53,135 nucleotides of DNA, taken from assembly GCF_017410345.1 (NCBI RefSeq), contig NZ_JAFQQZ010000048.1, forward strand, positions 1-53,135, written 5' to 3'. The notes beneath the pieces were generated by a model. That model worked only from the letters and a program-made list of their open reading frames with translations, did no database searches and was not told where the DNA came from. Positions 27,558 through 27,860 of this stretch are shown in pieces. Position 1 is the first letter of the stretch. The number at the start of each line of letters is the position of its first letter. Both the position numbers and the translations under genes were made by a program. The DNA comes from Methanobrevibacter sp. (GTDB lineage: Archaea; Methanobacteriota; Methanobacteria; Methanobacteriales; Methanobacteriaceae).

Positions 27558-27700
27558 ATTCTCAGGGCGGAGTGAAATTCTCCACCGGTGGTGATTCATT
27601 AGTGCAAAAATTTATTTTAAGAATGATAAGTCCACGAGCACAATTGTGTTGATTTGGTGAAAGTCCAAAACCGACGGTGACAGTCCGGATGGAAGAGAAT
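27558..27700 (+). ncRNA. FMN riboswitch aptamer (RFN element)
   Basis: The closing stem P1 is ATTCTC (27558-27563) with GAGAAT (27695-27700). Between them lie the conserved RFN blocks in the right order. These are AGGGCGGAGTGAAATTCTCC with ACCGGTGGTGA, the AGTCCACGAGC segment, GATTTGGTGAAAGTCC, CCGACGGTGACAGTCCGGAT and GGAAGAGAAT. In bacteria this RNA binds FMN and represses riboflavin genes. It stands about 170 bases before ribB, the expected target. Riboswitches are uncommon in archaea, which makes the element noteworthy. Confidence 0.93.
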
Positions 27701-27705
27701 ATGAG

Positions 27706-27860
27706 TTTAAAGTAAATAGGTCTAGATAACTCTATGTTTGATTAATAGAGAATAGCTAAAAATATAAAAAAAATCACCTTTACTTAAAAATAAATATCCT
27801 TTTTTTGCCCTGATTCTAGTAACTAGAATTAGAAAACTTTTAATTTAAACAACTAAGGAG
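27706..27860 (+). promoter_or_regulatory. Expression platform of the FMN riboswitch
   Basis: Two mutually exclusive-looking structures are visible. One is a stem joining AAGTAAA (27710-27716) to TTTACTT (27779-27785), enclosing a CTCTA/TAGAG hairpin and followed by a T run at 27800-27806. The other is GCCCTG (27807-27812), which is exactly complementary to CAGGGC (27563-27568) of the aptamer. A perfect ATTCTAG/CTAGAAT hairpin (27813-27829) precedes the AAGGAG site at 27855-27860. Transcript termination at the T run is the simplest reading. Confidence 0.5.

Follow-up and report, generated by a model that had tools for sequence, protein, structure and literature searches.

A probable FMN riboswitch of bacterial origin ahead of ribB in Methanobrevibacter and its likely re-use on a native archaeal gene

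Can a riboswitch of bacterial origin work with the RNA polymerase and the termination system of an archaeon? The question is testable, and it is raised by a locus in a genome of the gut methanogen Methanobrevibacter sp. (contig NZ_JAFQQZ010000048.1 of assembly GCF_017410345.1), the first 53,135 nucleotides of which are referred to here as the window. The fluoride riboswitch of Thermococcus kodakarensis was, as of 2021, the only natural archaeal riboswitch determined experimentally (PMC8241225). The element considered here is likewise a riboswitch in an archaeon, but it belongs to another ligand class and precedes another gene. Judged from sequence comparison, it is very probably a functional FMN riboswitch that came from bacteria and represses ribB.

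A search of the whole window with Infernal and Rfam gave a single match to RF00050, at 27554−27704 on the forward strand (102.1 bits, where the gathering score is 66.2; E 1.2e-22), which spans the full model (positions 1−138) and is the only copy in the 1.84 Mb genome. An earlier sequence-only reading had claimed a complete FMN riboswitch with all conserved RFN blocks, a perfect P1 helix of six base pairs and ribB as the next gene, and had proposed the covariance model as a check. That check was passed, every core block was found and fits the RF00050 consensus, the six P1 pairs are present, and the limits given in that reading (27558−27700) match exactly. The elements of this part of the locus are as follows:

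27554−27704, forward strand: FMN riboswitch aptamer (RFN element, RF00050), 102.1 bits, full length
27558−27563, forward strand: 5' strand of P1, ATTCTC, paired with 27695−27700
27695−27700, forward strand: 3' strand of P1, GAGAAT, paired with 27558−27563
27868−28509, forward strand: ribB, bacterial-type 3,4-dihydroxy-2-butanone-4-phosphate synthase, 213 aa (PF00926 and TIGR00506, above cut-off)
28555−30213, forward strand: tfrA, FAD-containing subunit of the CoM/CoB fumarate reductase (NF004900, above cut-off), 45 nt after the ribB stop

The end of the aptamer is separated from the start of ribB by 163 nt. By its sequence the aptamer is an ordinary member of RF00050, which it resembles in its full length, conserved core, six-pair P1 and downstream riboflavin gene; it differs in its archaeal host and in the archaeal promoter-like box and U-tract that accompany it.

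The distribution of the element was surveyed in 152 Methanobacteriota genomes, which are related and are not independent samples. Genera carry arbitrary labels, where g1 is that of the window genome, g9 the M. smithii group and g12 Methanosphaera; genomes G019 and G041 are taken to be M. ruminantium M1 and M. smithii ATCC 35061, respectively. The aptamer was found in 94 of the 152 genomes, one copy in each, all of them in six of the 17 genera of one family (Methanobrevibacter-type and Methanosphaera), and in none of the genomes scanned outside those six genera. This spread within the phylum fits the suggestion of the sequence-only reading that the element represents an under-reported archaeal use. 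At all loci examined, ribB lies directly downstream. Among 88 distinct archaeal aptamers, each consensus pair is kept in 92−100% of the sequences, and two-sided changes are seen at four pairs in P2 and one other stem (in 41, 14, 7 and 4 sequences). One g9 genome, G096, carries a decayed aptamer (L178, 2867−2981; 14.4 bits) beside an intact native ribB with a Shine-Dalgarno sequence and a ATGAATCAA start; the switch is therefore dispensable in that genome. Two further genomes, G064 (95% complete) and G116 (93% complete), gave neither a RibB match nor a riboswitch in the searches, and are possibly riboflavin auxotrophs or affected by assembly gaps.

The window RibB scores 275 and 254.2 bits with PF00926 and TIGR00506, above the curated cut-offs. 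Its nearest non-archaeal relatives are RibB proteins of Gammaproteobacteria and Desulfobacterota, with which it shares about 70% identity. The search for bacterial RibB favours sequences that have exact peptides in common with the query. An FMN aptamer is found 5' of ribB in all 18 bacterial relatives scanned, and in nearly all of these loci the leader shows the order GCCCTGATTCTGGTA, Shine-Dalgarno, ACCATGAATCAG; a leader of the form GCCCTGATTCTGGTA...Shine-Dalgarno...ATGAATCAG is common to nearly all of these relatives and to the archaeal copies. The proteobacterial leaders (Salmonella, Klebsiella, Halodesulfovibrio and others) thus have the same gene type, GCCCTGATTCTGGTA motif and ATGAATCA start region as the archaeal ones, while the archaeal copies add at least five T before GCCCTG, a TATA-like box and AT-rich linkers.

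Behind the archaeal switches two kinds of RibB are found, i.e., a protein 65−100% identical to the window RibB in g1, g6, g12 and g16, and a different one with about 30% identity to it in g9 and g2. Phylogenetic trees split the bacterial-type from the native archaeal RibB (100/100), place the bacterial-type proteins of g1, g6 and g12, with g16 excepted, in one clade against the bacteria (97% SH-aLRT), and make the native RibB of g9 sister to that of g3, a genus without the switch. Native RibB was not found in g1 (including the window genome), g6 or g16. In Methanosphaera, both ribB genes occur together in three genomes, and another four carry the native gene alone and no switch, which looks like a replacement in progress. 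The identity to bacterial RibB, the presence of the same aptamer and leader in those bacteria and the absence of native RibB from the window genome support lateral gain together with ribB, the other origin proposed in the sequence-only reading. The aptamer, the downstream leader and ribB would then have been acquired by the Methanobacteriaceae as a single unit of bacterial origin.

That ribB and the aptamer are bacterial in type would also be expected if the contig or the aptamer were a bacterial contaminant. This explanation is extremely unlikely, since the same arrangement recurs in independent, closed and unrelated assemblies of several genera, the gene after ribB is a tfrA of archaeal type (NF004900), and the leader has features specific to archaea. 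Slightly less remote, but still improbable, is that the aptamer persists only as a leftover of the transfer, transcribed without regulating. The decayed copy next to an intact ribB in G096 speaks for this, but the near-complete conservation and compensatory changes among the 88 distinct archaeal copies, and the retention of the aptamer on two different ribB genes, argue for a functional element.

The features around the aptamer are:

27509−27517, forward strand: TATA-like element TTATATATA, a putative promoter about 46 nt before the aptamer
27562−27568, forward strand: aptamer segment UCAGGGC, candidate anti-P1 partner and exact complement of GCCCUGA at 27807−27813
27706−27789, forward strand: variable hairpin region, an inverted repeat with arms TTTAAAGTAAA (27706−27716) and TTTACTTAAAA (27779−27789)
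27800−27806, forward strand: U7 tract, archaeal-terminator-like, immediately 5' of GCCCTGA
27807−27822, forward strand: conserved motif GCCCTGATTCTAGTAA of the leader, a bacterial inheritance (the ribB leader of bacteria has the consensus GCCCTGaTTCTGGtaA at the same place)
27810−27832, forward strand: hairpin CUGAUUCUAG-UAA-CUAGAAUUAG, an inverted repeat in the predicted MFE fold
27855−27860, forward strand: Shine-Dalgarno sequence AAGGAG, 7 nt before the ATG and kept in relatives

A TATA-like 8-mer is found at −44/−46 in most g1 relatives, and within −60 to −25 in 14 of 15, against about 0.40 expected from shuffles. Among g9 copies, 57 of 60 have such a box directly before the aptamer, in most of them at a distance of about 26 nt; in g12 the box is not above expectation. 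Its position in g9 and g1 therefore suggests that transcription starts with the aptamer or shortly before it, and the element in the window likewise implies an upstream start rather than one inside the aptamer, which the sequence-only reading had named as evidence against a riboswitch. Further downstream, most relatives in g1 have a stem comparable to that at 27706−27789, with a mean z of −1.7 and a single compensatory variant (in G025), which is only suggestive of a conserved hairpin.

The U-tract sets the archaeal leaders apart from the bacterial ones. A run of at least five T within 14 nt before GCCCTG is found in 87 of 94 archaeal leaders (58/61 in g9, 15/15 in g1, 4/4 in g6, 8/12 in g12, 1/1 in g16 and 1/1 in g2) vs 1 of 18 bacterial ones, where shuffles predict 0.05−0.11 in archaea and 0.04 in bacteria; these related genomes are not independent samples, and the runs could partly reflect AT-rich drift. 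Directly after this tract comes GCCCUGA, whose helix with UCAGGGC is predicted in the absence of ligand with a mean probability of 0.93 in g6, 0.90 in g2, 0.87 in g16, 0.81 in the 38 copies scored from g9, 0.73 in g12 (strong in most copies of this genus, not all), 0.26 in g1 and 0.27 in bacteria. In the unliganded fold of the window the value is 0.004.

We infer FMN binding, the direction of repression and the output step from these sequences. When FMN is plentiful the aptamer would close P1, and ribB, probably together with tfrA as the next gene, would be repressed; with little FMN, UCAGGGC would be free to pair with GCCCUGA, and ribB would be expressed. The bacterial-derived switch would now be transcribed from an archaeal promoter. 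The ribB gene of E. coli is controlled at translation initiation and also through termination by Rho (PMC5234074), and the archaeal output would most likely be mixed as well, with termination at the U-tract replacing the Rho step alongside control of ribosome access.

It is a real possibility, falling somewhat short of an even chance, that output is mainly transcriptional, where the FMN-bound P1 would halt RNA polymerase (with aCPSF1/FttA) at the U-tract before GCCCUGA. The tract has become fixed ahead of both RibB types, bacterial leaders lack it, it ends a median of 23 nt past P1 in g9, where the folds show no masking of the Shine-Dalgarno sequence, and tracts of at least four U are archaeal terminator elements recognized and bound by aCPSF1 (PMC8716108). 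In g1, however, the tract ends a median of 106 nt from P1, 4 of 12 Methanosphaera copies have no run of five T, and GCCCUGA is transcribed only after the U-tract and therefore has no simple antiterminator role. A mainly translational output, in which closed P1 would free GCCCUGA for a hairpin that masks the ribosome site, is an alternative that we hold tentatively. It would correspond to the initiation part of the E. coli ribB mechanism (PMC5234074), and the archaeal leaders retain from bacteria not only GCCCUGA and a hairpin but also the Shine-Dalgarno sequence and the start region, but the predicted accessibility of the Shine-Dalgarno sequence is not lowered by available GCCCUGA in either archaea or bacteria; masking by GCCCUGA is in this sense unproven by folding, not refuted.

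The native ribB genes of the M. smithii group bear on the history of the leader. Here, a bacterial-type leader that extends three or four codons into the coding sequence (ATGAATCAAGAA) is joined to the archaeal ribB, which is the native gene in its native position, and the protein that follows is native RibB. The leader lies between ribK and ribB, which in g3 touch each other, with no switch. Consensus start regions are TTACTATGAATCATGAA in g1, ACTATGAATCAAGAA in g6, ATGAATCATGAA in g12 and TTACTATGAATCAAGAA in g9, compared with TTACCATGAATCAG in bacteria; the archaeal leaders have derived letters in common, i.e., GAA as the fourth codon in all and ACTATG in g1, g6 and g9. In addition, 39 archaeal aptamers (g1, g2, g6, g9 and g12), all but one of those in the tree, form one clade (100/100) across both RibB types. 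From the shared derived letters, the single aptamer clade and the place of the leader at the g9 native locus it follows that the leader most likely passed from the acquired to the native ribB within archaea, and the presence of the same sensor ahead of distantly related ribB copies suggests that the regulatory part and the gene it controls spread independently. The acquired unit of switch and ribB in g6 is flanked by ribK and tfrA, which is the riboflavin neighborhood of the native locus in g7 and g9. A single tandem-deletion or inversion step carrying the leader to the native gene was considered and rejected; the gene orders of g6 and g9 misfit a simple inversion.

Two parts of the aptamer tree deviate from this pattern. 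The M. smithii-type aptamers of G041 (L112) and its sister G036 (L120) group with those of g1 (99/94), their RibB is native and they lack the MNQE start; this may reflect a separate leader exchange within gut methanogens, and a single clade of all native-ribB aptamers including M. smithii was not rejected (p-AU 0.32). The aptamer (134 bits) and RibB of G137 (g16; L002/L197) group with bacteria, possibly as a second independent transfer, and a single origin with the other archaeal copies was not rejected (p-AU 0.27). Genes nearby encode a type I restriction system and RNase III, and are uninformative on origin.

Taken together, these observations are consistent with a bacterial riboswitch that was adapted to archaeal machinery, through an archaeal promoter and a U-tract terminator that is gated by FMN and at which the archaeal polymerase or aCPSF1 would act, and that moved as a free-standing cassette from the foreign to the non-orthologous native ribB. 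We put this full reading forward tentatively, as less likely than not; if it is true, no FMN riboswitch would have been shown to act in archaea before this one. A worked Infernal example on M. ruminantium reportedly lists an FMN match. The bare RF00050 match is probably already in databases, and application of Infernal to M. ruminantium is noted in one review (Nawrocki 2014). No report of an FMN riboswitch in Methanobrevibacter was found in the open literature searched, where the transfer with the full leader, the archaeal refitting and the re-use on a non-orthologous gene also appear to be new. A metabolite-sensing RNA would thus have crossed from bacteria to archaea with its gene and later been re-used on a non-orthologous one.

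The known archaeal control of this pathway relies on a protein. The RbkR riboflavin kinase/regulator of other archaea belongs to the same pathway, and its kinase domain is present here as ribK, but the ribK genes examined encode a single-domain riboflavin kinase in which an RbkR-type N-terminal winged helix was not found. Of the fused model, only positions 92−216 are covered by the M. smithii ribK (124 aa), with a score below cut-off, and the ribK frame of the window genome begins at the kinase domain. Control by RbkR, considered as a candidate, is therefore not expected, i.e., the known archaeal repressor is absent in that form. The riboswitch suggests how vitamin B2 synthesis may be controlled in dominant gut and rumen methanogens, apparently without that repressor, and it is a possible RNA target in these organisms. 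The tfrA gene, which is probably co-transcribed with ribB and under the same FMN control, adjoins ribB in g1 and g6, on contigs that extend far enough, and adjoins ribK in g9 and g7; flavin-synthesis and flavoprotein genes thus stay neighbors through the replacement of ribB.

Upstream of the promoter, the window contains a perfect 60-bp direct duplication (27367−27426 and 27430−27489), which was not apparent within 95 nt 5' of the aptamer in relatives. It separates the riboswitch promoter from a gene for an ABC1/UbiB-family atypical kinase (25660−27285, reverse strand, PF03109) that is divergent from ribB.
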